64,000 bases of DNA from Phorcus lineatus (lineage: Eukaryota > Mollusca > Gastropoda > Trochida > Trochidae), in NCBI GenBank assembly GCA_921293015.1, contig OV121082.1, forward strand, positions 26,177,497 through 26,241,496. The letters are read 5' to 3'. The notes under the pieces are model-generated. The model did no database searches. It saw only the letters and a program-made list of their open reading frames with translations, and was not told the origin of the DNA. This document shows positions 1 to 58,900 of this stretch, piece after piece; positions within the stretch are counted from its first letter, which is position 1; each line of letters starts with the position of its first letter. Position numbers and translations under genes: made by a program.

Positions 1-593
1 ATACTGAACTAATATGCAGTAAGATGTTAATTTTCAGAACAACCACCACCACTCAATAAAGTAACACAATTTATAAAGTTTGAGATATATTTGACTAAAA
101 TAAAATGTGCCTCTTTAAATCTTGGTTACAGGCTCCTTGCCAATGAGATGCATAATTCACATATTTGGTATCCTAGTGGCCCCAAATAAAGGCCACATAG
201 ACCACACCCTGAAATCCTAAATCTAATCTTCTTCACAAGTGTAAGGCTCTTCAACACCTGATTAGGTCTGTATGGGCCACACCCTTCAACAAGTTTTAGT
301 CTTCTATTCCAGGGTTATGGAATTTACACTTTTGATTTTGGTGAGTCTGTGACCGACAAATGGCGCCATTGTTCTACCTTATGTTATATGTTGTGTGAAG
401 CCTGCATGATGAGCTGCAAAGCCAATGGCTCTACTTTCAGTTCCATGACTCTACCTTTGAGTGACAGACCAGGATTTGTCCAAGTCAGAGGTTGCATGAC
501 ATGCTTTGCTCCTCCGCGTTAAAGTTGAGCAAAGTGCTGTGGTATGTAGACAGGTACAGCTCCTTGATTCATGTTATGTTGTCTGATGCACAG
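1..593 (+). other. TSC2 intron (3' part) with a decayed repeat element
   Basis: This is the intron before the first visible exon. About 150-435 resembles a diverged copy of the 145-bp-repeat element found at 4155 and 32511: it ends with a GATGAGCTGCAAAGCC-like terminus near 410-430 and contains degraded copies of the repeat body. The acceptor is GATGCACAG at 593. Confidence 0.5.
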
Positions 594-697
594 GAGAGCT
601 CAGTGGAGATGCTTATGGAGCACCAGGCTCAGAAGATCCAGCCTGACCAGGAGAACTGGATGAACAACCTGGACAAGCTCATGGACAAGTACTTCAG
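594..697 (+). CDS. TSC2: TSC2 exon w1
   Basis: The 104-nt exon starts in codon phase 0 and ends with two bases of an Arg codon. Its end encodes [10 protein letters not shown], matching the tuberin helix that ends in MERYFR. The acceptor is TGCACAG and the donor GTACTC. The exact acceptor is less certain than the donor because the upstream exon is outside the window. Confidence 0.85.
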
Positions 698-3600: not shown

Positions 3601-6600
3601 TATTCAGCCACCTGTTTAGAATAAAAATTTGGTTTCATTTTAAAGCTTATCAGGCCAATAATTATCCATCATCCTTAAATGTTTCACATTTTTAGCACAG
3701 CCATGGCCTATATTCTGAAGCATATCGCCATATTATCTTCAGCTCTCCTCAAGGAGGCATTGCCAACTGAGATGCTATTTGTTCAACATATTGGTGATAC
3801 GCTTTTGCCTCCAGGGTGTGCACAACATCTGTGTGGTACAAGTGTACCCTAGTCAATGTTATGTCCACTTGTATAGATCGCTCCAAGTTGATCCCTTTGG
3901 CTACATTTGATTTGCTATTAAAGTTGGTCAAGGGAGTTAATTAGTTGTGTGTCGTCCAAATTTCACTGCTGCCTGTACGTAATGGTGACATGTCAAGTGA
4001 TTTAAAATAGGTGCAGACCCTACGAGGTGGTCCTGTTTTGACAGGGTATTCCCATTTTTGACACATGAGAGTGGTTTGGTTGTTTCATTTTCATTCTTGT
4101 TTATAAACAACGTCGATTGTGGTCATGTCATTCCGTCAAAAATGTTTTTTTGGTTTTTAGCTCATCAGGTCTGAAAGACCCGATGGGCTTATGGCATGGC
4201 AAGGCGTCCGGCGTCCGTCCATCCGTCCATCCGTCCGTCCGTCCGTCCATCCGTAAACTTTTCACTTTTTCGACTTCTTCTCCAGAACCAATGACTCTAG
4301 AGAGCTGAAATTTTATGTGCATACTCCTTGGCAAATGGGGATTCTAAATTGTAGATTTCGTGACCCCATGACCCCAAATGGGGTCACAAGGGTCAAAAAC
4401 TTAAAAATCTATTTTAATCTTCTTCTCCAGTTCCAAAAGGTCCAGAGAGCTGAAAAGTTGTGTGTAGACTCCTTGGGCACTGGAGATTCTAAATTGTAGG
4501 TTTGGTGACCCCATGACCCCAAATGGGGTCACAGGGGTCAAAACATGAAAAACCTATTTTCATCTTCTTCTCCAGTTCCAAAAGGTCCAGAGAGCTGAAA
4601 AGTTGTGTGTAGACTCCTTGGGCACTGGAGATTCTAAATTGTAGGTTTGGTGACCCCATGACCCCAAATGGGGTCACAGGGGTCAAAACCTGAAAAACCT
4701 AATTTCATCTTCTTCTCCAGTTCCAAAAGGTCCAGAGAGCTGAAAAGTTGTGTGTAGACTCCTTGGGCACTGGAGATTCTAAATTGTAGGTTTGGTGACC
4801 CCATGACCCCAAATGGGGTCACAGGGGTCAAAACCTGAAAAACCTAATTTCATCTTCTTCTCCAGTTCCAAAAGGTCTAGAGAGCTGAAAAATTGTGTGT
4901 AGACTCCTTGGGCACTGGAGATTCTAAATTGTAGGTTTGGTGACCCCATGACCCCAAATGGGGTCACAGGGGTCAAAACCTGAAAAACCTAATTTCATCT
5001 TCTTCTCCAGTTCCAAAAGGTCTAGAGAGCTGAAAAGGTGTGTGTAGACTCCTTGGCCAACGGGGATTCTAAATTGTAGGTTTGGTAACCCCATGACCCC
5101 AAATGGGGTCACAGGGGTCAAAACCTAAAAAACCTAATTTAATCTTTTTCCCTAGTTCCAAAAGGTCCAGAGAGCTTAATAGTTGTGTGTAGACTCCTTG
5201 GGCACTGGAGATTCTAAATTGTAGGTTTGTTGACCCCATGACCCCAAATGGGGTCACAGGGGTCAAAACATGAAAAACCTATTTTCATCTTCTTCTCCAG
5301 TTCCAAAAGGTCCAGAGAGCTGAAAAGTTGTGTGTAGACTCCTTGGGCACTGGAGATTCTAAAGTGTAGGTTAGGTGACCCCATGACCCCAAATGGGGTC
5401 ACAGAGGTCAAAACCTAAAAAACCTAATTTCATCTTTTTCCCTAGTTCCAAAAGGTCTAGAGAGCTGAAAAATTGTGTGAAGACTCCTTGGACACTGGGG
5501 ATTCTAAATTGTAGGTTTGGTGACCCCATGACCCCAAATGGGGTCACAGGGGTCAAAACCTTAAAATCCTACTTTCATCTTCTTCTCCAGTTCCAAAAGG
5601 TCTTGATAGCTTAATAGTTGTGTGTAGACTCCTTGGACAATGGGGATTCTGAATTGTAGGTTCGGTGACCCCTTGACCCCAAATGGGCAATGGGCCTTTT
5701 TTATTTGATTGTGAATAACTCTGACGTTGGGACAGGCTATCTTTCCTACACTGCCCATGACCCCATGGTCTAAACCACAACACCTATTTCTATCAAAAGT
5801 CTGATGAGCTACAGAGCCCATGGCTCTATTTTTTATAATCACTGTAAGAGTAAGAATATTTGCAATCGACTTGCTTATTTTATTCTCCACTTCCCTTCAA
5901 TGTAATTCTCTTTTGATTTTGAGCAAACAACACACATGCATGAGAGGTTCAATATACAATATTGCTGATTACAAACTATACTGTGTTGGCAGCACCGGAT
6001 GTATGTGATTCCATCTGCGTACTGTGTGCGGATCTACGAGTTACTGGTGTGGATTGTCTCCAGCCACTACCAGCATCTCTATCGGGGACACACTGCCTGC
6101 ACCATCCGGAGGGCTGTAAGTAGCTCCTTGCCTCCAGCAGCAAACAACTTTATTTGGAGTGAACAATAAAACCTTCTGTCAGGTCTTCCAATGCTTATTG
6201 TAAAACTTTATAACTTGCAGGAGTTGCAAGAAGTAACTTGCAAAATAATGAATTAAAAATGAATTATGTTATGATATCAAAATGTCAACTTTCTGTTTTT
6301 GTTGGCAGATTCTGGAGCTCTTCATGCAGCTTCGGTCTGACAGCTTCCATCGTTTGGGTTTGACCGAGACAGGTCAGGATGGTCCCTGTCCCTTCAGCCC
6401 TTATGTGACCTGTAACCAGAGATCAGAAAGTGAGGAGGTGGCCCCTGCCAGCCCAGTTACAGGAGGTGGAGCCTCCCCAAGCCCCTGGTACCAACCCCCT
6501 GCTGTCATCAACTACACGCATGCCTTCACCCTCTACATCACCTGTCTACAACAGGTCAGTCCGTCTCCTACAGTTCTTAGTTTCATCACATCACTATATG

Positions 6601-9600
6601 AAATAAAAGAAAGTTACATAGGCACATACTTGATGATTGATATTGTTATGTTATTGCTGCAGGAGTTGGACTGGGAAGTGCTGAGGTGTGTGCTGGAGAA
6701 CCTTCCCCTCGTGCTGCTGAACAAGACTCTTATCCTCACAACCTCGGGCAACATGGTCGCCCCCCTCTGTCAGTGTCTCTGCTCCATGGTGAGTACACCG
6801 TGTCAGTGTCTCTGTTCCATGGTGACTGCACCCTGTCACTATCTCTGTTCCATGGTGACTGCACCCTGTCACTATCTCTGTTCCATGGTGACTGCACCCT
6901 GTCAGTGTCTCTGTTCCATTGTGACTGCACGCTGTCACTATCTCTGTTCCATGGTGACTGCACTCTGTCACTATCTCTGCTCCATGGTGACTGCACCCTG
7001 TCACTATCTCTGTTCCATGGTGACTGCACCCTGTCACTATGTCTGTTCCATGGTGACTGCACTCTGTCAGTGTCTCTGTTCCATTGTGACTGCACCCTGT
7101 CAGTGTCTCTGTTCCATGGTGACTGCACCCTGTCAGTGTCTCTGTTCCATTGTGACTGCACCCTGTCAGTGTCTCTGTTCCATTGTGACTGCACCCTGTC
7201 AGTGTCTCTGTTCCATGGTGACTGCACCCTGTCAGTGTCTCTGTTCCATGGTGACTGCACTCTGTCAGTGTCTCTGTTCCATTGTGACTGCACCCTGTCA
7301 GTGTCTCTGTTCCATGGTGACTGCACCCTGTCAGTGTCTCTGTTCCATTGTGACTGCACCCTGTCAGTGTCTCTGTTCCATTGTGACTGCACCCTGTCAG
7401 TGTCTCTGTTCCATGGTGACTGCACTCTGTCACTATCTCTGTTCCATGGTGACTGCACTCTGTCAGTGTCTCTGTTCCATAGTGACTGCACCCTGTCAGT
7501 GTCTCTGTTCCATGGTGACTGCACCCTGTCAGTGTCTCTGTTCCATGGTGACTGCACCCTGTCAGTGTCTCTGTTCCATTGTGACTGCACCCTGTCAGTG
7601 TCTTTGTTCCATGTTGAGTACACTCCGTCCTATTTATTACAGATATCAAGCTTTTTCTTTGAAATCACTTCATCATGAACCTTTTTCAGACTTGGATGAA
7701 CACTTATTTGCACATTATGTGTAGTAATTGTTCTTCTCCTTTTGATAATGTTTTTATATATGTATAAGGTTAGATGTGTAGTAAGTAATTATAATCCAAA
7801 ATCTTCCTTTAATGTTATATTTTGTCTTTGTCTCTTTGAAGGTATAACTCTTAATTCATCACACAAATCTTTTACTGGGATAAAATAGTGAGGATTATGA
7901 TTTTTACAGATACTTTACTTCATTACATATCTACTTGGTTAAAGAAGTATTCATGTCTCATTATTGTTAAGAAGTTGAAACATAATAACTGCTTTAAATT
8001 TGATATACTTTCCAAACTATTTTGTGGCGTTTGAACAATCAATTGTCAACTGTATTTTGGCTTGTACATGCAGGTAAACGACCGGTCACTGTGCCTCCCA
8101 GAGAAACTGGACAGACTGCCACCCAAGTTCACGCGTTCTGATTTCCACTCCTTTGTCTTCCCTGTGCTGGCTACTATGGTGACATACCACAACTACTTGG
8201 ATCGGCATGGCCAGGTGAAGCTTTCCTCTTAACAATCCAATCTAAACATAGCACACATCATTGTTTTGTACAACATCTTACTGTCAGCAAATTTGGAATA
8301 GGGGGAACCAGTCTATTTCAGCACCAACTGTTAAGTTACAAATTACTGTCAAGTAAAAATTTTAGGAACAAAAATTTATATCTACCTTTTTGTAATCAGC
8401 TGCTCTTTGAGATCTGTTTTGTTGGTGACCATTCACTCTAGTAATAGAATATTCAGTTAATGAGCTTATGTTTTTTTTATTGTTGTTCTTAACCCTCAAG
8501 TTGCTGAATAATATTTTGACCAATTTTCCCCCTGTGGCTGAATTTTTCAGCACTGGCCTCACTAATGTTAATGCCTAATTAGCTCCTGTGGCTGAATTTT
8601 CCACTGTTTTTACAGTATATGTTGTTTTAATACGTCAAAGTAGGGACTTAAAAAATCGTTTTATACAAAGTCAGTTGGCGAATCCTGTGTAAAAATGGAC
8701 ACTTCTTATCCGACACTTTGAATGAATTATTTATACCTCCTAGAACGATTTCTATTACAATCTAAAGATTGGCTTCATTTTGAGTTGAATAAAATCCTGA
8801 AATATTATCGCGCAACTAAAATTCTTATACGGAATTGAAGATACATTATTCCTATTCACAATGATATAAAAATAATTATGATACGATCTCCAGTTAGATT
8901 TCTACAAGTTTTTAAAGATGGTCTTTATTTCCAGTTAAATAAAATCAATAATACTGAGCGCGCATACATGTATTATATATGGAATGGCAATTTATTCCTC
9001 TTTAAGATGCCAAAAACATTATTAGAATGCGTCTTACAGTTCAAAAGATATATGCTGCGAAAGATAGTTTGGGTACCAAGACAACGTTCTGACCCTACTG
9101 CATTAATAGCTAGAACTAAATCCCCCAGGGCCTTCTGGCTAGTCAGTACCCTTATACCCCGGGGCCCCAGCATGCGAGTGCCACAGACTTCTAATCAACA
9201 GCCTTGGCTCCCGCATAACCGATTCTCTCTGCGGGTGAAGTCACACTCGGGTCAGTGTTCGGGCAAACAGTCCAGCATTGTTACTTTTTCAGCTTACAAA
9301 AGCATAATATCATTAGCTTTAAATACATTTAGAATGGAATAGTTTCAGATTTAGTCTAATTTAGTCAGATTTTATCAAAAAATTTAAGAATAAAAATTTG
9401 GGGTCACCTAACAATTTAACATTGTCAGCATTAAAAATATTGTTGCCATCTGCAAATTTCATTTTATCATCAAAAACTGTGTTCCACAGGAGATGTCGTT
9501 TTGACAGTAGATTTTGAACAATGCCATGTTACAGTCAATATGATTGTTGCAGAGGGAACTGCTGAAGTGTTTAGAGTTTGGGCTGGTGTCAAAGTGTGCC

Positions 9601-15600: not shown

Positions 15601-18600
15601 TGATAACAATTTTATCCTATGTAATGAAGCAAAGTTACAATAAGAATCACTGCAGTGCAAAGGATGTGTCTTCTTTTATTCCAAGGATGCAGCAATAAAA
15701 TCATATCTGTAACTTCATCTACTCAAGATATATTTATTTTCTGTTCCAAACATACAACAAACAACTCTATATATTTGAAAAAGTAAATATGAAATAATAT
15801 TGATGTTATGAATCAGTGTTGTTCACTTCAATATTGTTTTCCCCTGTTAGAATATAATATAATAAATATCATGCTTGATTTAGGAGATAAATCCATTCTG
15901 CTTTTTATTTTGGGGTTGTATGTCTTGCATTTTTTACCCCTAAATTTAATTTCAAACCAAGCTAGTGAGCTTGAATTAATCCTGCTTCAGGACTGTTTTT
16001 TAATAAGGAGTCTTTAATACAGTCTAGGTCCTCATTCAGCAAGTCAGTATTTGAGATCATATTATGAAAAGAATATTATTGATAAAGAATCAGGAAATTA
16101 TGAATATATTTCATAGACTAAATTTTAGGTTAACGGAAACTGTGAGCTTTCAAAATTGAAGGTGTTTTTAGGGTACTCGAGTCTGGGTCAGGTTCTAGGC
16201 CATGGGTAATCGAGTCTAAATTTCCTTATCCACCAGAGACTTGCTCATCTGATTGTACAGAAAAGATAACATTGTAAATATGTCCTTGTATTGGTTTCCT
16301 CAAAGATGATAGACTTTTATCAATTTTTATTATTTAACAGTTCAAAACTAGTCAACTTCCTTCTGTCTGGGACCCAAAGTCAGACATGGTTGCTAGGTAA
16401 CAAGATTGTCACCATAACAACAAGTGGGAGTGGCATGAAGGCTGCTAATGCAGGTGTGTGTGAGAAGTGTGCAGCTTTGTACCATGAGGCTACTGTGATT
16501 AGGACGACTGCACCTACACCCAAGAGTGAGCGACGACGTCATAAGTCTGCTGCATGTCTGAGTCGCAGTCAGAGCCAGATGGACTCAATCCCATCCCCGA
16601 GTTTGGAGGAGGGTAGGGTTGCCCCAAAGTGGTCGCAGGATGACCTCAGCATGCCACGCCCCGTATCAGATGAGGTGGGAGTGCAGACAGGCTCGTCTCT
16701 GTCCGGGGACTCTTTGGATTCATTCCTTCTTGGTACGTCATTCAGTCTCATACCACTCTTGTTACTCACATAGTTCTTCACAGCTTGTTTCAAGAGTACT
16801 GGTACAGTTTCTTTAAAAACATTTTGTGATTTATTTTATTAAGGTCTGAAGAGTGAGACTGCAGAAAATCAACCTAGTACAAGCTTACCCCCGTGTTCTT
16901 GCTGGTGCAGTGGCTGGGCAGAGGTGAACATCAGGGGGCCTAGCGGAAATGTGTCCTGGGTCATGCGTATTGAGAATGAGATGAGCTCTAACATTGGCAT
17001 CATGGAAGCCAGTCTTCAGGACATCACAATGCTCTTCAAGCCCATTCAGCAGTGCCCAGGGCAAGAACGTAGCCACAGAAAGATTGACAGTGAAAGCCTC
17101 GGGGAGGAGGAATATGAGTCACTTTACTCCAAACATTTCTCCGGTCAGTACATGCTTTCTCCACTCCAAAGATTTCTCCGGTCAGTACATGCTCTCTTCA
17201 ATCCAAACATTTCTCCGGTCAGTACATGCTCTCTCCACTCCAAACACTTTACTGGTCAGTACATGCTCTCTCCACTCCAAACACTTTACTGGTCAGTACA
17301 TGCTCTCTCCACTCCCAACACTTTAATGGTCAGTTACATGCTCTCTCCAATCCAAACACTTTACTGGTCAGTACATGCTCTCTCCACTCCAAACACTTTA
17401 CTGGTCAGTTACATGCTCTCTCCACTCCAAACACTTTACTGGTCTGTACATGCTCTCTCCACTCCAAACACTTTACTGGTCAGTACATACTCTCTCCACT
17501 CCAAACACTTTAATGGTCAGTACATGCTCTCTCCACTCCAAACACTTTACTGGTCAGTTACATGCTCTCTCCAATCCAAACACTTTACTGGTCAGTACAT
17601 GCTCTCTTCAATCCAAACATTTCTCCGGTCAGTACATGCTCTCTCCACTCCAAACACTTTACTGGTCAGTTACATGCTCTCTTCAATCCAAACACTTTAC
17701 TGGTCAGTACATGCTCTCTCCACTCCAAACACTTTACTGGTCAGTTACATGCTCTCTCCACTCCAAACACTTTACTGGTCAGTACATGCTCTCTCCACTC
17801 CAAACACTTTACTGGTCAGTACATGCTTTCTACACTCCAAACACTTTACTGGTCAGTTACATGCTCTCTCCAATCCAAACACTTTACTGGTCAGTACATG
17901 CTCTCTCCACTCCAAACACTTTACTGGTCAGTTACATGCTCTCTCCACTCCAAACACTTTACTGGTCAGTACATGCTCTCTCCACTCCAAACACTTTACT
18001 GGTCAGTACATGCTTTCTACACTCCAAACACTTTACTGGTCAGTTACATGCTCTCTCCAATCCAAACACTTTACTGGTCCGTACATGCTCTCTCCACTCC
18101 AAACACTTTACTGGTCAGTACATACTCTCTTCACTTTTAACACTTATCTGGACAGTACATGCTCTCACTATTCTAAACACTCCTCTGTTTGGTAATTGCT
18201 CTCTCTACTGCAATCTCTTTTGTCTTGTGGTTTGCTTAACCATGTACTGATGTTATGACCGTGTATGGATGATGTTTATATATCTGACTGATATGTTGTC
18301 TGTGTGTTCAGATGAGATGGACAAGAATAGCAGTAATCCCAGCCAGCACAGAGATGTCTGTATGGACAACAGCAGTAAACAGGTATTTCACACTCTATTA
18401 CTCACTAATTGCACCTTATTTATCTATTTACAAATGATTGATTATGTTTCATCTGAAGATGAGCACTCAGTTGTATTAGGCCTCCTCCTTTCTATAGTCC
18501 CAGTTTGTCAGTGTGAGAGAAGAGGAGAGCCCTTGTTCCTCTGACAGCAGTCCGGCAGTGCTGGAGAGGAGTGAGCCCCAGCCCACCGCCACCACCACAT

Positions 18601-21600: not shown

Positions 21601-24600
21601 TTGACCAGTTTTGCCCCCGTGGCTGAATTTTCCAGCACTCTCCTCGCTACGGTAATAACGCAATTAGCCCCTGTGGCTGAATTATTTCGCACCGCGAGTC
21701 GCGGCTGTTTTTTCGATAAATGGTGTATTCACATGGCGGATTACGGATGAAACTGACCGTTCGATACAAAAGTAGCCCGCCAATCCCTTACACAAATGAA
21801 CGATCTTTATCCGACACTTTGAATGAAATTTTTATCTTACCTAGAACGGTTTCTATTGCAATATGAAGATTGTCTTTATTTAGAGTTACGGAAAATCCTT
21901 AAATATAATCGCACAATTAATTTTTTTATATGGAATTGAAGATACATTATTCCTCTTTACGATGATATATATCTTTTTACAATGCGACCTCTAGTTAGAT
22001 TTCTACAATTATCTAAAGATTGTCTTTATTTCCGGCTGAATAAAATCCCTAATACTTAGCGCGCATACATGTATTATATATGGAATTGTAGACAATTTAT
22101 TCTTCTTTATGATGATAAAAGATTGTTAGAAAATGTCACCCTGTTCAAAAGATATACGCCGCGAAAGATGGTTGGGGGTACCCCGAGGATGCTCCGACAT
22201 AACAGGATTTTTAGCCAGAACTAATTCTCCCTTGGGCAGTCTGGCATCGGTACGCTAATTAGTACCGTTATACCCCCGGGGCACCCCCAAGGCACCAGCA
22301 TGCGAGTGCCAGTGTTCTAAGCACCAGCGTTGCTTCCTGCTGTACCGATCCTCTCGGCGCGTGCAGTCACACGCGGGCGAACATTCCGAGATAATAAAAT
22401 CAATCATTCTATACGCACGCCGCATCGTTATTTCTTGCTGCGCATGTACAAATTATACATGGAAATAAAGATAAATCTTTCGTCCTTACGACTGTGAAAA
22501 AATAATGAAAAGGTGCCAACTGGTTCAAAAGATATGAAAAACGAAAGAGTGATACCCTCAACTACTTGAAAACAAATTTTGATAAGCGTTCTATTTGCGA
22601 CACCAGTCGCATCATCCACCGCATTGTTATTATTGACTGCGCATATGCATATTATACATGGAATTAAAAACAATTATATTCCCTTGAAATAGGTGAAAAA
22701 AATATAAAAAAGTATAAAATAGTTCGGGAGATATGAACCGCGAAAGAGCGACACCCTCAACTACTTGAAAATAGATTTTAACAATCGTTTTATTTGCGAC
22801 ATTTGTCGCAGCACTCGCCGCACCATTTTTATTCATTGCGCACATGCATATTATACATGGAATTAAAGATCATTCTTTCCGCTTGAGAAAGGTGGAAAAA
22901 AAATTTAAAAGTGCCAAATAGTTCGGGAGATATGAACCGTTAAAGAGGGGTACCCTCAGACATTTGGGGAAAAAAATTGATAATTGCGACATTTCTCGCA
23001 TTATTTGCCGCTTCTTTATTATGTGTTGCGCACATACACATTTCATAATGAATCAAAGCCAGTTCTTTTCCCTTTACGATGATGTAAAAAGTATGAAGTT
23101 TCGCCACCCGATTCTAAGAAAACAAATTGCGAAAGATCGGGGGTAGGTTCGTGATGCGGCTCGTATCAAACGTCCAGTGACAGCTCACATTGACTTTCTC
23201 TGTCTCTTTTACGACTTAAAAAAAAGATTATTTTATTGACAATCAGTATTTTATATTACACTTATTCACCTTATTGATGTGAAGAATAAACTTTATAAGG
23301 AGAGTAACGCTCATCCACACTTCTGCTTCTTTCTTCTTTCTTCAATCTTCTTGATTATCCCCCTCATTTTCCTTCTCTGACATCAAACTGATATAAGCTT
23401 TAGTGCAATCTTGTGACGTGTGATAAATTCTGAAACATGGTGCTGCACATAGAGCCACATTACACTCGATACATTCGAAAGAAGATTCTTTGCCTACCCT
23501 TTTCTTCTTTCGAACTGGCTGATTTGTTTCTTCGAATTCCCTTCGACGAAGTTCTCTATTCGCTTTGGAGCAAACAACACACATGCGTGTTAGGTTTTTC
23601 TTCTTTCCAACAGGCTGAATCTTTGATGGAAAGTGACGACCATGGAGTCGCAAGACACTATCGTCGCTCGTGCTCGGCCGGCCGCGAGGACGTCTGCGCA
23701 GGGAGGGCACTTTTTCTGTTTCGGCGAAGGTGATCATATGCTGCACCAAATCTTTTCTAAATTGACGGCTTGTTTTCAAAGGTTTGTCTTCTGAGAATTC
23801 TTTATAGATAATGTAAGAATTCAACATGGCAACGTTCAACACATGAAACCACACACGCTTCCACCATTTAAGAGTTTTCATTTTGAACGGGGTGTACGAC
23901 AGCATCTGGTCGGCCCGATCCACACCTCCCATATATTTGTTGTATTCGTGCACAATACGTGGTCTCGTATTTGCTTCCCCAGTCACTCGGTTCTTCTTTC
24001 CTGTCTCTACAATTTCGGCGTCTTCTACGGTTGACATGAGCAACACTGACTTCCTGTCCTCATACCGCAAAACGAGTAGGTCTTGATTGTGATAGATTGT
24101 CATATCCCCTTTCTTCTGATTCTTCTGTGCCTTCTTTAGCTTTTCAGGAATGCCTTTGCGATTTCCTCTCAAAGTTCCCGTCGCACCAGTTCCCATTTCC
24201 CACAAGTTTATATACAATGCCACCGAGGAATAGAAATTGTCCATGAACACATGATACCCTTTCCCAGCATATTCCTTCACCAAGTCCATGACGAGATCAT
24301 ACGTTTTCCCACCAACAGAAACAGCTTCATTTGTTTTTCCAGTGTAGAGTTTGAACTTGCAAACATAACCATTTGTTGAGTCGCACAACATGTAGGCCTT
24401 TATCCCATACTTCTTCGGCTTGTCGGGATTATATACTTTGAAACTCAGATTGCCTTTCCAAGGCACCAACCCTTCGTCAACACAAATGTTTTGATGCGGC
24501 TTATAAACTCTGGAAAAACGATGCACGATGCGTTGGTACAGATAGCCAAGTTTATTCATTGGTGAAAAATGCGGAGTGTTTCGTCCCGGCATTAGGTTGT

Positions 24601-27600
24601 TATCATTCAAATGTAGATACGTTAGCAGTAGCCAGAACCTGTCGCGGGGCATGCACTTGGAAAAGAAGGGCGTCGACGTAACATCACTTGTTGACCAATA
24701 CTCAGAAAAGTTTCTCTGTACAACCAGAGACATTGCTATTGTCATTGCAATGAATACTTTCATTTCTTCGGCATTCGTATCATACCAGTGCCTCAACCGT
24801 GAACAGGGTTTCAGAACCTTATCATCGACCTGTTGGTGGAAGTATCTGTTGGTTTCTGCTGCCAATGATCCATAATCATCTTCATGAAAAAACAGTCCGA
24901 AAAAGTCTACAGGTTGCGGGTTATCAGGCAATTCTATAAACCGTCCTAATCCCGTTGCGCCAGTAAAATGCAATTCGACACGTCCACGTTGCCTCGGCCC
25001 CTCTTCCCAGCGATCCATAAAATTATCTTGGTCATCAAAATGTGTGTCCATTTCATTATATTGCTCGTCAAAGCCACTGAACTCTTCCTCTGTGGAAGTA
25101 CCAGCCGTAGCAGTTTCACCCGTACCAGCTAATATGTCTCTTGCAATGTTTCTTATTTCTTGATCACTATCAATGTCACTTTCACTATCACTGTCACTGT
25201 CACTGTCACTATCACTCTCATCAGTTGATTCCATATCAGAAGCTTCATCGGCATGGACCTCGTTGATGAAGTCGTCGTCGCTAGACGTTGACGGACCTTC
25301 CCAACTCCTGGTTCGCGGCCTCCTGGCCTTAGGCATCTTTCACATCAATCTGTAAATGATTGAAAATAATTTAGGCACACGCAAGATATAATAACATCAA
25401 CACATGACCTGTTGTACAGAGAAATTCAATGTGAGCTTCATGGACATTCAATTGCCACATTTTGTAAGTGTTTGAAACAAATTTGCCGTTGCGCGCCTTT
25501 GGCGCCAGCGGTCATCAATAATCCGGACATTTTCTAATTGTCCTGGTGAAAGCCGGACATTTTGTTTCACGATTTGCAAAAATAACAAATCAGGACAAAT
25601 TCTAACATTGCTGGACAATTTCTAACTTTCGGACAACTTTTCACAATCCAGCCGAACAAGTTCTAATGTCGCCGGACACTTTCTAACTTTTGGACGACTT
25701 ATCACAATCCCGCCGAAGGTGCCGATGGCACCGACGGCCGCCGACGTTGTATCAACATTATCAACCCTGATGCCGCCTTCTGACTCCTATGCAATGAGCC
25801 GGCGAGTCGCGAACAACTGCCTTCTACGTCAGGAAAGTTCTGATTGTCAGTTGTGGATTACAAAAGTTTTTCAACTTTTGACTTCTCTTCCGAGAATGAT
25901 AGGTTCCACGGGACGGCCGTAGTCAACGAGCACCCGGCCCCTTGTCTTTAGTTCACTGGAAGGAACTCATGCCATCCCGACATATATAGCAAATTATTTA
26001 AAACATCGGAATGCTACCAAACTTTTTTTTCAAAAATGAGTTTCCTCGACCAACAAAAATTTGGCAGAAAAAAACACATACCTGCTGGCGGTGCCCGACG
26101 AAAGTCCGCTGAAATTTTTTTTCTCGAACACGAACATTTTCGTTGGACACATTATCTCATGACCTGATGGCGGTGCCCGGCGAAAGATCCCCGACATATT
26201 GTGTCTCAACCACAAACATTTTCGTTGGACAACTTTGCCTTGACCTGATGGCGGTTCCCGACGGCATCCCCGACATACTGTGTCTCAACCACAACATTTT
26301 CGTTGGACAATTTTCCCATGAACTGATGGTGGTGCCCGACGCAAAAATCCCCTAACTCAAAAAAGACATCAATAACGCTATGAATGTAAATCCAAAAGTT
26401 TTTTTTCCTTCAACTTTCATGGTTTATAAAACTCTATAATTGAACACTAAAGAAACAGGGTTTCCTTCATAATTTTTTTTACTTATTACATTTATTTATA
26501 ACATTTTAGCGGCGCTTGTTGAGTCTTTATTTCTATGAGCGCATAAACAAATTGTATATCAAATTGAAGAGAATTTTCTGCTCTTTACGCTGATACCAAA
26601 CGTTGTTGAGCGCGCCACTTGGTTACAGAAATACGAAATGCGAAACTTGCCAAATTTGCGGCACTTCTTGTGCCTTTATTTTTGTGTGCGCATGTATGAT
26701 CAATATATTGAAATGAAGAACAACGTTCCGTCTTTATTTAGACGTAATATTTATCAAAATCCGCCAAGTGGTATAGAAAATATCGAGTGCCAAAGAAAGG
26801 TACATGAAAATCGAACTTCAGATCACATGAAAAGAACCCTTTGTGCGGCGCTTGCTGCATCGTCGTTTGTTTTAGCGCATGTACATTTTATATATCACTT
26901 TGTAGACAATTTATTCCTCTTGATAATGATATAAATGGTTTTGAAATGTGTCATTTGTACATGGGGATATGAAGTGCCAAAGTTTCCCTATTTGCGTCAC
27001 TAACGGAATTGCGAAGTGCCAAAGTTGTTCTTTTTACGGCACTTGTTGAGTCTTTATTTATTTGCGCGCATAATAATTGATATAGGGAATTAGAGACAAT
27101 TCATTTGTCTTTATAGTGATGTAAAATTCAACAAAATCTTTTTCACGGTGTAAAAGAAATTCATTGTGAAAGAAAGGCACATGAAAATCGCGCTTCAGAT
27201 CACATGATAAGAAAGTCGGCAAAATTACCTTTTTGTGCGGCGCTTGCTGTATCTTTATGAATTGTTGCGCATGTACACATTTTACATGGGATTAAAGACA
27301 ATCTTTTTCTCTATCTTGTGATATAAAAAATGTCAAAATATGTTGAGCACATCATGAGAAAATTGGTGTGACAAAACAGTGTAAAACTAAAAATATATAA
27401 AAATCACCTTTTTTGCGGCACATGCGGTATCTTTATTTCACGAGGCGCACATATGTTTTTTACATCGAATTAAAGACATTTTTTTTCTCTTTCAAATGAT
27501 CCCACCTATATTGAAATCCGCCCAAGGGTTCAGAACATAGGGCGTGCGATAGGAAGGCGTGCATAGGGTCAAAATGCACGCGTCTCAGTAAACGATAGCA

Positions 27601-30600
27601 TGCGCGGGTCGGTAAGCTCGTGCGAGAGGGTAGAAAGTGCCCACAGGCTATTAGCACGTGCGGCGGGGAGTGGGGAAAAATTGAGTGATTTTAACGTTTA
27701 TTTTCGGTACGATAAACATTATCAATACTCTCATAACTTTCGGAGCATGTTCGCGCATTATTTAGAACACCAACAAAACAAAACACGGTTGCTTAGCGAC
27801 AGCCGGAACGAAAATACAAGCGTTGAACTGAGACTACTGCTAGGCAATAAATTTCCGGGACCCGCCACCGAGACCCACGGTCATAATTAGTTAGCGTGAG
27901 AAAAATAGAGTGTGCTACTCGCATCCCGCTAAGAGGACTTGCGGGCAAAGCTAATTTCATCCCGGAATATTCCGGGACCCGCATCTTAAGGGTTAAAATT
28001 GCTCTGATCTAGCTGATTGACTACTGAAAGTAGATTAACGGTTTGGGAGGATCCTTTCAACAGAATTCTTTCAGCTTTTAATAAGCAAACGCAGAAGTGT
28101 ATGTGTATTGTTGGTCCTATGGAGAAGATTTTCAAAGACACATACTGTTAAAACTGAAAATTCCGATTAAACAATTTATTTTAGTTACTAGCATAAAATC
28201 CTTTAATATGGCCAAAACTGCTACAAGGTAAATGATAGGGAACTGGTGTTTGGTGGAATTTGGTGCAAGTTTTTTTTAAATATCCCAATAATATGTATTT
28301 ATTGAGCTATTGAGGTTCAAAGTTTTAAACTTTAAAGGGATATAACGTTTTGATTAATTTTTTTCTTAAACCCTATTACACCAAAATTGACTGTTTACAT
28401 AAAATTGCAATTCTCCTAATAGAGTAGAAGCCTATTGCAAAATATTCGGACCTTAAGAAATAATTAAGTACAAAAAAGATATATTTAAAAAAAATTTAAA
28501 ATGGCTTAATATTTTGCACTGCAACCCTCATTATAGACAGGGAGACGTCCAAAATTTGAAAAGAATTGGTTATAAGGTCTTTCTGGCAACTTCTTATTTT
28601 TAGAAATGACTAAGAACAAAGCATGGAAAGTCTTGAAATATTCCAAAATTGATGACAGGACAGAATTTGCTATATACCCTTACGTGGGTAACAAATTAAA
28701 GTTAGGCGATACTCTAGCAGTCCTGAAAATGTCAGGAAAATCGGATCAGTCTTCATTTCAGAAATTGATGCAAAAAAGTGTTAAATTGGGCAAAGTAACA
28801 ACCATAGGTCTTACATATACATAAGTCTGGAAGACCTTATAAATCTCCATTGTCTATTGTAAGCAAGAAAGCAACTAATGGTACTCCCATTTTCTAACAT
28901 CTTATGATATGACATAACTTGTTATCACCCTTCAGGGTGATAAGCATACACTCTACTTTCTGAAGAAGGGAAGAAATAAACAGTTATACTTACAGTTATT
29001 TACAGTCAACTAAACAAATGATGGTTTGTGAGTGAAATTTCTATCACATATGTAGACTTTTTTATCACTATTGAAAGGTTGTCTTAACTATCGGTGCCAT
29101 AACTTCATAAATCAATTTTGATTGCTATAAAAATCATTCTGGATGTGATAGAATGATAGCTTTAAATATGTTATGATACTTTAAATGAGACTGCGTATAT
29201 TAAAAAAATGTGAAACATCTGTAACATTAATTTACTTGGACATATCTTTATGTGCAGGTGTCTGATGAGCGGGGTATACTATGCAACCTGTATGGATCTG
29301 CACGCTATGCCCGCTTCGTCCAAGGTCTGGGGCAACTACTGCACCTGCGTGACACGGACCCAAACCGAGTGTACGTAGGAGGGCTGGCCCTCACAGGGGG
29401 AGATGGGGAGTTTGCCTACAGCTGGCAGGATGAGTCCATGCAGGGTGAGTATCAAGGGTGTAGGAACATTCCTGTCTTACTATCCTCACTGCACACCATC
29501 CAGCAATCTCTGCTACCCAAGCACATGTTTACCTATAGTTTTTTCTTTTCAGTTATATTCCACATAGCAACATTGATGCCAAATCGAGAATCGGATCCAA
29601 ATTGTAATGCCAAAAAGTTGCATATTGGGAATGACTTTGTTACAATAGTGTACAACGACAGCGGTGAAGACTATAAGATGGGCACCATCAAGGTGAGTCA
29701 CCACAGCGGTCTATTGATGTGCTGTCTGGGCAAGTTTCTTCATTGTGTCATGGTCACCACAGCGTTCTGTTGATGTGTTGTCTGGGCAAGTTACTTAATT
29801 GTGTCATGGTCATCACAGTGGTCTATTGATGTGTTGTCTGGGCAAGTTTCTTCATTGTGTCATGGTCACCACAGCGGTCTGTTGATGTGTTGTCTGGGCA
29901 AGTTACTTAATTGTGTCATGGTCATCACAGTGGTCTATTCATGTGTTGTCTGGGCAAGTTTCTTCATTGTGTCATGGTCACCACAGTAGTCTATTGATGT
30001 GTTGTCTGGGCAAGTTTCTTCATTGTGTCATGGTCACCACAGTAGTCTATTGATGTGTTGTCTGGGCAAGTTTCTTCATTGTGCCATCATCACCACAGCG
30101 GTCTGTTGATGTGTTGTCTGGGCAAGTTACTTAATTGTGTCATGGTCATCACAGTGGTCTATTGATATGTTGTCTGTGCAAGTTACTTAATTGTGTCATG
30201 GTCAACACAGCGGTCTGTTGATGTGTTGTCTGGGCAAGTTTCTTCATTGTGTCATGGTCACCACAGTAGTCTATTGCTGTGCTGTCAGGGCATGTTACTT
30301 CATTGTGTCTTGGTAACACAGCGGTGTAGTGCTGTGTTGTCTGGGCAATTCTTTTGTCAAGAAAATATAATAGAATACCTTTGTTGTTTTTCCTGCACAA
30401 TATGAATAGCCGACTTTCTTTCCAATTTTAAAATTCTTTTATTTAATAATAAGACAATTCAGCTATTTTAACATTTTTCTCTTGCAAAATAATCAATGAT
30501 GTAGAGACCATGGATGAATTTTTGGAACGTCAACAAGCAACTTTTGGCATATGGTCAAATTCTGGAAGGTGATTTTATTCTTGAAAGTCAATTGAGGTTT

Positions 30601-51885: not shown

Positions 51886-52755
51886 GTCCACAATCCAATT
51901 GTCCAGACTTTATCAAATGATTAAGAAAATTCTACAAAGTAATAAAAGAGTTCTTTTTAGTGCTTCTTCAATCTGTGGATCAAATTATGAATTATGAATA
52001 CATTATCAGTTAAAAAACCTTTACTGACACCGGTTATATGTGATATAATACCATTACCATGGAAAAACTTCATTGAGGATAGTAATAAATAGCTTGCCAA
52101 AGCAGCTAAAAACAGATATCGGTCTTTTGGAGGCAGGATCCATACGATCTCCTGATTTCTTGTAGATAGGTTTTATTGTTTATTGTGAGTTATTCCAGTT
52201 TGTATTACAGCGTTGAAATATTCCTCATAAAAAGGCAGTAGATTTGGTAAGGCTGAAAATAAGAACTCATTCAAAATCAAATCTAAACCAGGTGTCGTGT
52301 TTTTCTTTAATTTCTGGTGAGCAAAAACTATTTCATTTGAAGTTATGTCTTCATTGTGTACTCTAACATCATTATTTTTCGGGTCCTTTATTCCATTTAA
52401 GTCCGCATCACCATCAATTTTGCTTTCATTTAAGTTTTTGAAATGACCTTAAACATCATCTAAAGGGATTGGGTTATATTGTCTTTCTGTTTATCTTTAA
52501 GTTGTCAGTCTCCGATAGTGTTTAGGTGACGATTGCTTGTCTTTCCTTAACAGCTGGCTTCTTATAAAATCATTTTCCTTTTTTATATAACTATTCATGG
52601 TTGTCTTATAATCCTTACTTGCTTATAGGCAAAGAGTTTTATTTGTCTGTTTTTTTCTTTTGCATTCATCAGTGAGTGTCTTGGAGATTACACGAAAATC
52701 CCGTTGAGAAATGATAGTATGTTTTTGTTTAAACATCATTATTTATACTCACCGT

Positions 52756-52894
52756 CGATAGTTAACAATATGCCCGATTATCCTAATCTGTCTAATTCCG
52801 ACAATCCTTACACAGAGTAAAGACAGAGTTATCGCTGCTCTAGCCTGCATCGAATACTCGCCACCAGGTGGCTAACCCCACGTCATCATTGCTT
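52756..52894. repeat. Inverted terminal repeat of the DIRS-like element (element 3' side)
   Basis: Starts CGATAGTTAACAATATGCCC and ends CGTCATCATTGCTT; exact inverse of 55577-55715. Confidence 0.9.
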
Positions 52895-52949
52895 CTTCTG
52901 ACGGGCAGAGAAACCGATCGTACAGAGGGGAGGCCGGGTGGGAGCTAAC

Positions 52950-53044
52950 GATTGTTAACTATCGACGGTGAGTATAAATAATGATGTTTAAACAAAAACA
53001 TACTATTATTTAATATACTCTCCTCGATAGTTAACAATATGCCC
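52950..53044. repeat. Internal complementary region of the DIRS-like element
   Basis: The first part (to about 53005) is the complement of 52717-52770. The second part (CTCCTCGATAGTTAACAAT and neighbours) is the complement of 55690-55736. The junction between them predicts how the ends would be joined in a circle. Confidence 0.85.
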
Positions 53045-53274
53045 GAATCCCACAGACGGAGGTGGGTACGAGCGGCCAAGCGATAACCACTCTCTCTTTA
53101 CACAAGAACACTGGGGACCTGTAAGATGACACTCCGCGTGAACCCCTAGGGGACGGAGTGGTCAGCCTTGACCCATCCTCGCTGTGCGAGGGGGTCCGCA
53201 ACCAAGGTCGCCAACTAAAATACAAAAGACAACAAACAACCAACTAAGATCAATCTCGGGTTTATTCGAATTAG

Positions 53275-54894
53275 TTAACGAGTAGGAGGGTGACTCCTGC
53301 GCTGAGGAGCCGAAGGAACTCGCTGCTGGGCGTACACCTGTGCGCCCAGTCGGTTGATCCCCTCCAAATCCTCGTTGGAGATGTCCCGGAGGTAGTGGTT
53401 GGCGAACACCAAGCCTGACTTCCAGAAGCAGCCAGCCATGATGTCCGCCACCGCCAAGTTGCTGTGGAGGGCCATCGTCGCTGAGATGGCCCTGATCTCG
53501 TGCGGATTTGCCCTCGCTGGAGGGTCAAGGTCCGCTGCTTTGTAGGCGTCTAGGACCGCTGAGCGGAGGTAGACGCCCAGTTGTCTTTTATCAATTTCCC
53601 GGACACTGGTCTGGGAATGTGGGATGAAGAGTCTCCTTCTCCCTTGACGCAGTGTCCGGGTTTTCTCGGCATAGATCCGTAGCGCGCGTACCGGACAGAG
53701 GAGACGATTCTCCTCGTCTGTCGGATCTACGCTCCCGGAAATGGACGGTAACGAGAAGGTTCTACCCCTCTCGTCCGCGGTTTGGTTTTTGCAGATAAAC
53801 TCAGGCGCCAGTCCCAGAGTAGCCGACCCCCCATCCCTCACATCAAAACGCAAAAGGTCCGCCTGGAGAGCATGTAGCTCTGAAATCCTGGCTGCGGACC
53901 CCATTGCGACCAAAAAGGCGGTTTTGATGGTGAGACGGAGGACGGTTGTCTCCGTCAAGGGTTCATAGTGGTCGGACTTTTCCAACCTGGCCACCCTAGT
54001 CGAAGAAGGTTCTTCCTCCAACTCCTGAACGCTTACCTGACACCAATCAGCGATGGCAGTCAGGCGGTCCTTTAGATCGGGAGCGTCGTTCGCCGTGGTC
54101 ACAGCCGTGACAGGCGGTGGGGGAGTCACGTTCCCCCGCCCAGGCGTTCCTTCATCCTGGCCTCGATCAGGAGTTGGGGAAGAGTCATGATCCGAGGGGG
54201 TGGCGGCGGGAGAAACGACCACCACCCTCCTCCTCTTAGGAGAGGACGGCGCCTCAGGGGAGGGCGGGGATGAAGTAGTCCCCTCCTCGACCCTGGGCCG
54301 CTCACGTTCTCTGGACTCGAACATGGATACGACCAGATCCTTCACTGAGGACATGATATCGTCCGTCAGCTTCTTCTGGTCGAAGGCAACTGGGGAAGCG
54401 GGTCTCGACCTCTTCCTCTTCTTATGTTTCCTCTTCCTCCTGGCGGCCCGGCGGCCCGGGGAAGAGGCAGTGTCAGGGGAGGATCTCCTTCCAGGAGATC
54501 GCTCTACCCCGCTAGAGGGAGGAGAGGCGGCCGGCGCATCCTCAACCGGCGACACGATCTTATCGGACCCGCCGCCTGTCTCCGACAGGTCAAATTCCGC
54601 GGCGTCCTCCGAAATGACCAGATCTGAGTTTTGCGCGCCATCCGCGCCCTTGGTGGCGGTGGCTGAGGAGGACGCAGAAGGCCGCCTAGTGGATCTGAGT
54701 CTCTGCTGAGACTCCGACTTCTTTACCGCGGCGCGGTACTCTCTGTGCTCCGCCGGGGAAAGGTGTTCACATTCCCTGCACCTGTCCGACTCGGCGCAGA
54801 GATTCCGACACAGGCGGCAGAGAGAGTGAGGGTCGAAGCGCGCCGACTTCCTGGACCCACACCCTCCACAAAACCCTGAGAAGGGGTTGGACAT
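53275..54894 (-). CDS. Gag-like/DIRS-type tyrosine recombinase fusion, 539 aa
   Basis: Residues 1-45 carry Cys pairs (FCGGCG, CRLCRNLC, CREC) of a zinc-binding Gag-like domain. Residues 60-270 are Ser/Pro-rich and charged, with a basic RRKRKHKKRKRSR stretch near 152-164. Residues 310-520 are a tyrosine recombinase catalytic domain: R336 (SAARISEL), possible K369, H465 and R468 (HEIR), W491 (FWKS) and Y501 (NHYLRD), the DIRS arrangement. The N-terminal DNA-binding half of a usual DIRS recombinase, and all of the reverse transcriptase, RNase H and methyltransferase-like regions, are absent. The frame is unbroken, unlike nearby relics. It could cut and rejoin the element ends. A C-run lies just upstream of the start on this strand. 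Confidence 0.85.
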   Translation of the reverse strand: MSNPFSGFCGGCGSRKSARFDPHSLCRLCRNLCAESDRCRECEHLSPAEHREYRAAVKKSESQQRLRSTRRPSASSSATATKGADGAQNSDLVISEDAAEFDLSETGGGSDKIVSPVEDAPAASPPSSGVERSPGRRSSPDTASSPGRRAARRKRKHKKRKRSRPASPVAFDQKKLTDDIMSSVKDLVVSMFESRERERPRVEEGTTSSPPSPEAPSSPKRRRVVVVSPAATPSDHDSSPTPDRGQDEGTPGRGNVTPPPPVTAVTTANDAPDLKDRLTAIADWCQVSVQELEEEPSSTRVARLEKSDHYEPLTETTVLRLTIKTAFLVAMGSAARISELHALQADLLRFDVRDGGSATLGLAPEFICKNQTADERGRTFSLPSISGSVDPTDEENRLLCPVRALRIYAEKTRTLRQGRRRLFIPHSQTSVREIDKRQLGVYLRSAVLDAYKAADLDPPARANPHEIRAISATMALHSNLAVADIMAGCFWKSGLVFANHYLRDISNEDLEGINRLGAQVYAQQRVPSAPQRRSHPPTR

Positions 54895-54899
54895 AGCCC

Positions 54900-55576
54900 C
54901 ACGCTCACCCTAGGGGGGGGGGGGGGGGCGCCTGACTGGACAGCGCCGGCGCTGCACGGGGACAGCCCACTACGCACGACCAGACGCAAGCGAGCGCCAG
55001 TCGATCAGCGCTAGCGGGAGGCGGGGCCGCCTGGAACGCAGGCGATAAACTCTAGCGTCAGGCGAGCCGCGCTAGTAGAAGGCGGTAGAGCGCCTGAAGC
55101 GCAGGCGGTTTGACGAGCAGGCGGCCCGCGCTAGCGGGAAGCGGTAGAGCGCCTGACGCGGCAGGCGGTAGGCGGCAGGCGGCAGAAACTCCAGGCGGTC
55201 AGACGCAAGGCCTGAAGCCAGCGCGGGCGCTAGGCGGTAGGCGCTACCAGGCGGCAAGCGCACAGCTAGCCAAGCGCAGAAGAGAGGCGGTAGACGGGAG
55301 GTCTACCGCTAAACCAGCCAACACGGGGCGGAACGACCCAGCACGCAACGCACGTGCAGTCCGGGTAGCCGAAATCGACAACAGCTGACTGAAGTCAACT
55401 GCTGACAAAACCGGCAAGGAGACAAATAACCACAGGTTCTGGATACTCCACAAGAAGTAGCCGAACCCAAACACGACAAACAGTCGAGAAATCACACAGG
55501 TGAGAAAGGTTTAATCATAAACAAGTCGGAAATCGCTAAGCTATCAAGACACGTCTGCACTTGATGGCCGACAGAA
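54900..55576 (-). other. GC-rich 5' region of the DIRS-like element
   Basis: A run of about 16 G (54913-54928, + strand) is followed by degenerate repeats of AGGCGGTAGAGCGCC and GCGCTAGCGGGA types. Likely the untranslated leader and promoter; no ORF is supported. Confidence 0.6.
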
Positions 55577-55715
55577 AAGCAATGATGACGTGGGGTTAGC
55601 CACCTGGTGGCGAGTATTCGATGCAGGCTAGAGCAGCGATAACTCTGTCTTTACTCTGTGTAAGGATTGTCGGAATTAGACAGATTAGGATAATCGGGCA
55701 TATTGTTAACTATCG
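55577..55715. repeat. Inverted terminal repeat of the DIRS-like element (element 5' side)
   Basis: Exact inverse of 52756-52894 by eye. Confidence 0.9.
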
Positions 55716-55944
55716 AGGAGAGTATATTAAATAATAGCTTTTACCCTCTGAAAAATATTCAATGAGTGGCTTGAGGATTTTTATTTTCTTCAGATTTACG
55801 AAAATCAGGTTGAGAAATGATATGTAGGTGTAGCCTTTGAAAAGTAACTTTTCGGAAAGTAAGGAATTAGTGGAACTGAGGAAAGAATAAGAGGAGATCT
55901 TCATTCGGTCATCGTCCAAGTGGAAAAGGTTAGTCGTTATATTA

Positions 55945-58900
55945 GTCCTGCTTCATAACTGTGTATATAAAGGAGCCTTTAATCCAGTCTAGGTCCACAT
56001 TCAGCAAGTCTAGATTGACTGAATACACAGTCATGACAACTTCACTGACCCACTAACGGATATTTCGCAGCCAGAGGAGCTTACTTACGTTTATGATTTC
56101 TAGCCAGGGGAGGTTGAGATTTATTCTTGTTAAAGTTTTAGGGTCTTAGCTTTGATGACATGCATTGGATTTGTATTGGTTTGAAAGTATAACATATTTC
56201 AGTATATTCAGCATTGATGTAGTATAATGGCTTAATGGCTTGTGCAATAGAAGACGCAATACGATATAGACTTGAAGAAAGGGTTTGAAAGTTTAAGAGG
56301 TCACCAAATAAACTTTAAGAAAGAATTAGAGGAAGGAAATTACGCATTTCGTCTTCACCAACTGAGACAGGGAAGTCACAAACATTTTGAATTGCTCAAA
56401 TTAACATTAAAGTAGTACTACAATTTAAATAATGTCAGTATGATTGTGATTTCACCTTTAGTCACACTGAAAACAGAAAACAACAGATGGATATAGAGGG
56501 GTTTAATTGAATTCAGTATATTTGAAAGAGGAGGGTGACCAGAGCAATGAGGATGGACTACTCAATCTAAAATATAAGGAGTACGTGGTGAGATTGACAT
56601 TAACTTTGCAAGCCTTTGGTAGTTATCGTGAACTTGTTTAAGAATTAACAAAGGATAAAATGAGACTTTGAAATTCAAGAGACATGCTCCCTTTTGATTG
56701 AACTTAATATCATGTGGTCACTTTACATAACCATAAAAGGCAGATTACAAGGTATTTATGTCGCAATTTGGGGTTATACAAAATGCTGCCTTCTGATTTG
56801 GACAAACTAAGGTCATATGAACATCAGGATTACCTTTTCAGTGTATCATTGCACAATAATAAGTTCCTAGGGGTAAAAGCCATGTTCAAACCTGGTTCAT
56901 TTAAAAAGTGAACTGCGTTAACGATATCAGAAGTACTGAAAGTCAGTGATGCTCTCAATAGGATGGATACAGAAACGTGACAGTAGTTCAACCCCCTGTC
57001 TCTGAGATGGCCATGGGTGTGGAAGCCATCATGGGTTCCAATGTTGACAGATTTACTGATAGTGGAGGCTTCAACAATTTAGTTGTAAAGAAAAGAGACA
57101 GAAAAATGTATCCACTTATCCAATTAAGATTGTCCTGATAAAAGGCCCATGAAGTTATTTATTCTATGAAATTAGGAGCCCAAAGAAAAAAATATTATGG
57201 ATGAAGGAACATTTAAATTATTAAAAAAATTTCATGGACTGAATTTTGGTCTATCGTTATATCTGCAGCTTAGAAAATTGGAATTTTGTGAGTAATGGTA
57301 TGTCTGAACTAGAGCTGGAAGAAGGATCTACCATAGAGGGTGCAAAACAAATTGTTCTTGAGGCAAAATCTTTTTATGAAAGTTTGTATTTCTCCAAGGA
57401 GAATATGTTGAAAGATTGTAACCTTGATGAACTCTTTTCTGAGGAAGAATTGCATAGACCCTGCAAGAAACAATCTAATTCTTTAGAAGGTCCTGTGACA
57501 TAACATGAAGTTTAGTCAATGCTTGAAGAAGGCAAAAAAGAAACAGAGTCCAGGTTCAGATGGATTTCCTTACGAGATCTTTAAGTTCTTCTGAAAAGAC
57601 AGTCCCCTTTCCTGGTGAAGGTCAATTAATTATGTAGCTTTGCTAATGGTAATCTCTCAGTGACACAGAGGCAAGATATTGTTACATGCATTCCAAAAAT
57701 AAACCTAAGCGTTGTTTTAAAACTGGAGACCTATCTAAACTTCTGTCATCAGTTATACCCGAGAGGTTCAAAGTGTGCTCCCGAAATTGAACAGTACTGA
57801 TCAAACCGATTTAATGTATAACAGATATATTGGTGATATATAAGAATTGAATAAGATTGAATATAAGATTGCTCAATGACTTGATAAATTATACAGAATG
57901 CAATAATATTCCTGGAATGTTGTTTTTAATAGATGTTGAGAAAGCATTTCATTCTGTCACATGGTCATTCAGAACTTATACATTCATCGTTTGGATTTGG
58001 AGAGACATTATCAAGTGGTTTAATATCCTTTACAGTGATGCAAGATCTTGTTTGAATATTAACGACACATTGTCCCCTTGGTTTTCTGTGGAACGAGGCT
58101 GTAGACAAGGTGATCCTCTGTCACCATATATCTTTATCCTCTGTTTTGAGATTCTGATATTAAAGGAATTTCAGTTGATAATGAAGAGTATTTGTTGACA
58201 CAGTATGCAGACGATCGGAGTTTGTTCTAGATGGTTCTCAGGAGTCATTTGAGGCTACGGTTGACACGTTGAATGTTTTTGCTTATATTTCAGGACTTAT
58301 ATGATTTAAATAAATTGTTCAGTCAGATACTTACCATCGTTAAATATTCAATGGAATCTAGAATACTCTCTTGGGGTGATATTTTCAGGATATTTATCTA
58401 CTATGGCTAAGAAGAATTTTAAAAATAAACTGTAAGAAATTCAACTGATAATCAACAGAATAGCTATAATAAAATCATTGCTAATTTCAAAATGAAAATC
58501 TTTTTCCAACTCTCCCAAACCCTCCAGGAAACTCTCTTCAGGAAGAAGACAACATGCTTTTCAATTTTCTCTTGAGTGGGAAAAATGAGAAGATCAAAAG
58601 AGTTGTTGCTTGTAATCCGTGAAAAAGGATGGTCTTGGTATGGTGGAATCTCTCTGTTATGTCATTTCTGCAAAGCTGACATGGATGAGAGAGTTGTTGG
58701 ATGTTGGTCATGGTTCAAAATGGAAACTGTTATGCTATGTTTCAAGACTACAAACTCTAGGTGTAGTTGGTATCTTCTTTTCCAAGTGAACGATCAAAGG
58801 ATCGTAAGAATGAATTTTGGAGTGATTGTATGTGGTGGCACGTTTTCATTTAAGATCAAGCCGAATTCCTTTGTGAATTCACAACAGAACCAATTTTCTA

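Follow-up and report, generated by a model that had tools for sequence, protein, structure and literature searches.

An internally deleted DIRS1-like retrotransposon copy with a fused Gag-recombinase frame, very probably a one-off deletion derivative

Piednoel et al. (2011, PMC3266345) give DIRS1-like elements full lengths of 3974-6283 bp and inverted terminal repeats with a conserved part of 31-304 bp. The element analysed here resembles them in its identical 140-bp inverted repeats, in having an internal region close to the 3' end that is complementary to its tips, in an A/T-rich tip and junction, which agree with the common ATT/AAT type, and in belonging to a family whose full copies of about 6.2 kb have Gag, reverse transcriptase (RT)-RNase H and recombinase frames. 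What it lacks in comparison with DIRS1-like elements is RT/RNase H, half of its Gag and the core-binding region of its recombinase. A comparison with its relatives in the genome indicates that it is a member of a young DIRS1-like retrotransposon family, very probably made defective and non-autonomous by a one-off deletion.

Layout of the element and its insertion site

The window, the whole stretch of 64,000 nucleotides that was analysed, corresponds to C2:26177497-26241496 in an assembled genome of 957.8 Mb and 74 contigs. The element was annotated as follows, with L009, a full-length copy of the same family, as reference:

52717-55736, minus (coding strand): internally deleted DIRS1-like retrotransposon copy, 3020 bp
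55577-55716, no strand: terminal inverted repeat at the 5' end of the coding strand, 140 nt, 100% complementary to 52755-52894
52755-52894, no strand: terminal inverted repeat at the 3' end of the coding strand, 140 nt, pairing with 55577-55716
52951-53046, minus: internal complementary region, complementing both tips joined head to tail
53275-54894, minus: fused open reading frame (ORF), 539 aa, putative product of the deletion, from the ORF list and comparison with L009
53980-54894, minus: Gag-derived part of the fused ORF, residues 1-305 of the L009 Gag
53278-53979, minus: tyrosine-recombinase catalytic part, residues 731-964 of the L009 frame, without the core-binding region
53978-53979 (within 1 base), no strand: deletion junction, 3165 bp absent relative to L009, 1-nt microhomology, one genome match
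55063-55064, no strand: second deletion, 23 bp, in the G+C-rich 5' leader (after element position 2347)

A sequence-only reading of the window had described a single unbroken 539-codon ORF and an internal region complementary to both tips, and both were confirmed. Positions 52951-53011 pair with the left tip at 52709-52769 (61 nt, 98%) and positions 53003-53046 with the right tip at 55694-55737 (44 nt, 100%). The inverted repeats are identical as it had stated, over 140 nt rather than 139 bp. The 23 bp missing at the second deletion are present in 19 of the 20 other aligned copies; L023 has 6 bp there.

The left flank ends in ATA beside the tip in the window copy and in 19 of 20 other copies, while the right tip ends in AATA in 14 of those 20 and in AAT in the remaining 6. 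The window site is slightly unusual in having G as its fourth letter, a position occupied by A in 17 and by T in 3 of the 20 others. Nothing beyond the shared 2-3 letters was seen as a duplication in the flanks. These site letters fit the DIRS model of PMC3266345, in which a circle junction recombines with a short target that matches it; a 2-3 bp target-site duplication would look the same as such matching letters. The host flank also holds a repeat: immediately to the left of the element, at 52685-52716, is a stretch of 31-32 bases ending GTTGAGAAATGATA, and the same GTTGAGAAATGATA-ending stretch occurs again at 55792-55822, 55 bases past the right end.

Elsewhere the window has eukaryote-type gene content. 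A Rap_GAP domain (PF02145, 1.4e-26) at 29252-29773 is presumably the end of a TSC2/tuberin gene, and ORFs from 6282 on, we assume, may hold earlier exons of this TSC2/tuberin-like gene. Array-like repeated ORFs appear in the ORF list at about 6650-7650 and at 17375-18195. An unbroken 664-aa transposase ORF (DDE_Tnp_1_7, 2.2e-92), which we take to be of piggyBac type, occupies 23342-25336 on the minus strand, and an RT fragment (RVT_1, 2.8e-09), LINE-like by eye, is found at 57857-58198 on the plus strand.

Full-length relatives and the deletion junction

For comparison, 27 other copies of the family were fetched from the genome, in sets of 20 (L009-L028) and 7 (L031-L037). Six of the 20 in the first set were shorter than 6.1 kb. 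At the site of the gap in the window copy, 2523-3165 bp were present in all 20 copies of the first set, and sequence was also present in all 7 of the second, some of which had gaps of their own, so that the gap was filled in 27 of 27. RT-bearing, full-length relatives of the kind that the earlier reading had proposed searching for as a parent exist in the genome, L009 being one example.

The Gag ORF of L009 (591 aa) had no match in Pfam. Its 719-aa ORF matched reverse transcriptase (RVT_1, PF00078, 1e-17) and, below the curated cut-off, RNase H (RT_RNaseH, PF17917, 5.5e-4); its PDB matches include the RT/RNase H 4ol8 and the Ty3 polyprotein 7q5b. The last part of this frame, after RNase H, may resemble a methyltransferase-like domain; a Pfam search of it returned no match at E <= 0.1. 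The recombinase frame of L009 gave SAM-like (0.0017) and Phage_integrase (0.19) matches, both under the curated Pfam cut-offs, and no match among PDB sequences; its catalytic motif was read by eye. The SAM-like core-binding match, likewise below cut-off, lies at about 5223-5411 of L009.

Relative to L009, the window copy is without positions 2377-5541, a stretch of 3165 bp or about half of the element's length. This stretch takes in half of Gag, the whole of RT/RNase H and the SAM-like core-binding region of the recombinase, and the first 305 of the 591 Gag residues are fused in frame to the retained recombinase residues. The breakpoint lacks GT-AG ends, which rules out a removed intron as the cause of the gap.

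The junction was found once in the genome. A search with the whole element gave at least 113 matches (40 of 448 candidates scored, the counts being lower bounds); among the matches listed, the only one covering 1-3020 in one piece was the window copy, and elsewhere the large matches begin or end at element position 1263. With a 200-bp probe spanning the junction, 1 of 40 reported matches was continuous and 39 were half matches (40 of 171 candidates scored). When up to 3 mismatches were allowed across the whole 958-Mb genome, a 30-base junction pattern matched only the window, and its reversed control matched nowhere. Multiple copies with the same fused ORF, which the earlier reading had proposed to look for, were not recovered by this pattern. 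A single-copy fusion, a parent with RT and a breakpoint unique to the locus had been named beforehand as the outcome that would refute that reading and make the fusion a one-off deletion, and this is the combination that the genome search returned. The Gag-side half of the 200-bp probe also has two matches on the same strand at G000:C5:56700737 and 56702572, 1.8 kb from each other, perhaps a tandem or rearranged copy.

Other copies of the family have also been shortened internally. Deletions or losses of 25-642 bp inside the element were seen in 7 of the 20 other aligned copies, among them L020, L022 and L025-L028, with 0-3 nt of microhomology as aligned; the 12-bp and 17-bp deletions in L012 and L023 are left out of this count. 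Boundaries were read off a MAFFT alignment, with an uncertainty of a few bases, and the actual L027 junction is a letter or two away from the join that the alignment implies. L026 (C7:12133700-12141200) and L027 (C9:36700800-36708300) have three internal deletions in common, although their flanks differ and the loci are unrelated. One of the three, of 91 bp, starts at the codons for the RT motif YLDD, which was read by eye (boundary within a few bases), and its junction has exactly two genome matches, the L026 and L027 loci. Because two unrelated loci share the deletions and this junction, RT-damaged copies of the family have probably been copied or moved, which suggests full-copy proteins acting in trans as the simplest route.

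Age of the copy and state of the fused frame

Across the 3.0 kb shared with L009, 11 of 3015 aligned bases are different in the window copy (99.6% identity); in comparisons with all 20 other aligned copies, the number ranges from 11 to 46 of about 3000. Six substitutions are private to the window copy, as compared with 0-11 in each of the other copies. These small numbers indicate that the insertion is young, as is the family. Inverted terminal repeats were present in all 21 copies compared, and in all 21 the end repeats agreed at 164-166 of 173-174 aligned positions. Near-identical repeats are a family trait, not distinctive of the window copy, and since every copy compared has them they are no sign of selection on this one. 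Identical repeats and an intact ORF had been read as pointing to recent movement or selection; the youth of the copy stands, the argument for selection from the repeats does not.

Nor does the open frame provide one. Three of the private substitutions fall in the ORF, two synonymous and one nonsynonymous (D269N). In a simulation that modelled substitutions only, an ORF of this length stayed open with a probability of 0.82 after six random substitutions and 0.90 after three, so survival is expected after so few changes and does not indicate selection.

Cys/His motifs near the N-terminal end of the 539-aa protein and an R...HxxR...W...Y pattern near the C-terminal end were read by eye. The whole protein had no Pfam match at E <= 1, hence none to RT or RNase H, and no match among PDB sequences at E <= 1. 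Its C-terminal part gave a sub-threshold match to PF00589 (E 0.11), and one scan of viral contigs found no relative of the recombinase part. The recombinase had been called full; only the catalytic part is retained, and it is incomplete because the SAM-like core-binding region of L009 lies in the lost stretch. Judged by this sequence, the fused protein is predicted to lack recombinase activity. That the protein is produced and either hinders or assists full-length copies, with the copy itself still movable in trans through its intact ends, is very unlikely.

Origin of the copy and comparison with known elements

The preferred explanation is a single 3165-bp internal deletion, which would have arisen either through a template switch of the reverse transcriptase or through end joining at the locus. 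It would have cost the element the latter half of Gag, the gene for RT-RNase H and the beginning of the recombinase gene, and joined two reading frames by chance (1 in 3). The resulting copy would be unable to move alone, and any movement would need proteins of full-length relatives acting on its intact ends. Such movement in trans is possible in principle, and nothing points to movement after the deletion. Set against this explanation are the frame that is open across the join together with two complete ends, which leave movement in trans possible, the sub-threshold Pfam matches of the L009 recombinase, and the chance of an assembly error at a multi-copy element. That last concern, namely that a full-length copy lost its middle portion during assembly, draws on the difficulty of assembling multi-copy elements and is very unlikely here: the join is clean, with a 1-nt overlap, and was seen once, and the copy has six substitutions and a 23-bp deletion, which none of the 20 other aligned copies has in full. 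Collapsed repeats seldom yield so clean a novel join.

The time of the deletion is a separate matter. The copy may already have been deleted when it inserted, shortened during reverse transcription and integrated by proteins of full-length relatives. This is a sub-case of the preferred explanation that differs in timing alone, and a substantial possibility, if short of an even chance. The complete ends and internal complementary region agree with it, as do the three deletions shared by L026 and L027 at unrelated loci, one with a junction found exactly twice in the genome; against it, no second copy of the window deletion was found in the genome. That a DIRS-like element shed its RT, as first proposed, was confirmed. 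The further proposal was a minimal Gag-recombinase lineage without RT, autonomous or trans-dependent, moving by an RT supplied in trans or as a Crypton-like DNA circle. An open 539-codon frame between complete ends is what such a lineage would have, yet it is extremely improbable given the single junction in the genome, the RT-bearing copies elsewhere and the absence of half of Gag and of the recombinase core-binding region, and the 2 synonymous and 1 nonsynonymous private substitutions hold no readable selection signal. Crypton-like movement was rejected on the single junction and on the position of the core-binding region within the lost stretch.

A single chance deletion in a young retrotransposon can evidently yield an open fused frame flanked by perfect repeats. 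The window copy is of little importance by itself. The family is mildly useful, being young, with full-length copies and two loci that share deletions hitting RT; these shared deletions in L026 and L027 suggest RT-defective DIRS copies mobilised in trans.

Compared with full-length family copies such as L009, the window copy has the same ends and similar insertion-site letters, and differs in lacking the 3165 bp that they hold. Cryptons are autonomous DNA elements with a complete tyrosine recombinase and no RT. The window copy is like them in encoding part of a tyrosine recombinase and no RT; it is not identified as one, having RT-bearing close relatives and an incomplete recombinase. Unlike in Cryptons, its RT was lost by a deletion seen in one copy, and its ends and relatives are those of DIRS.
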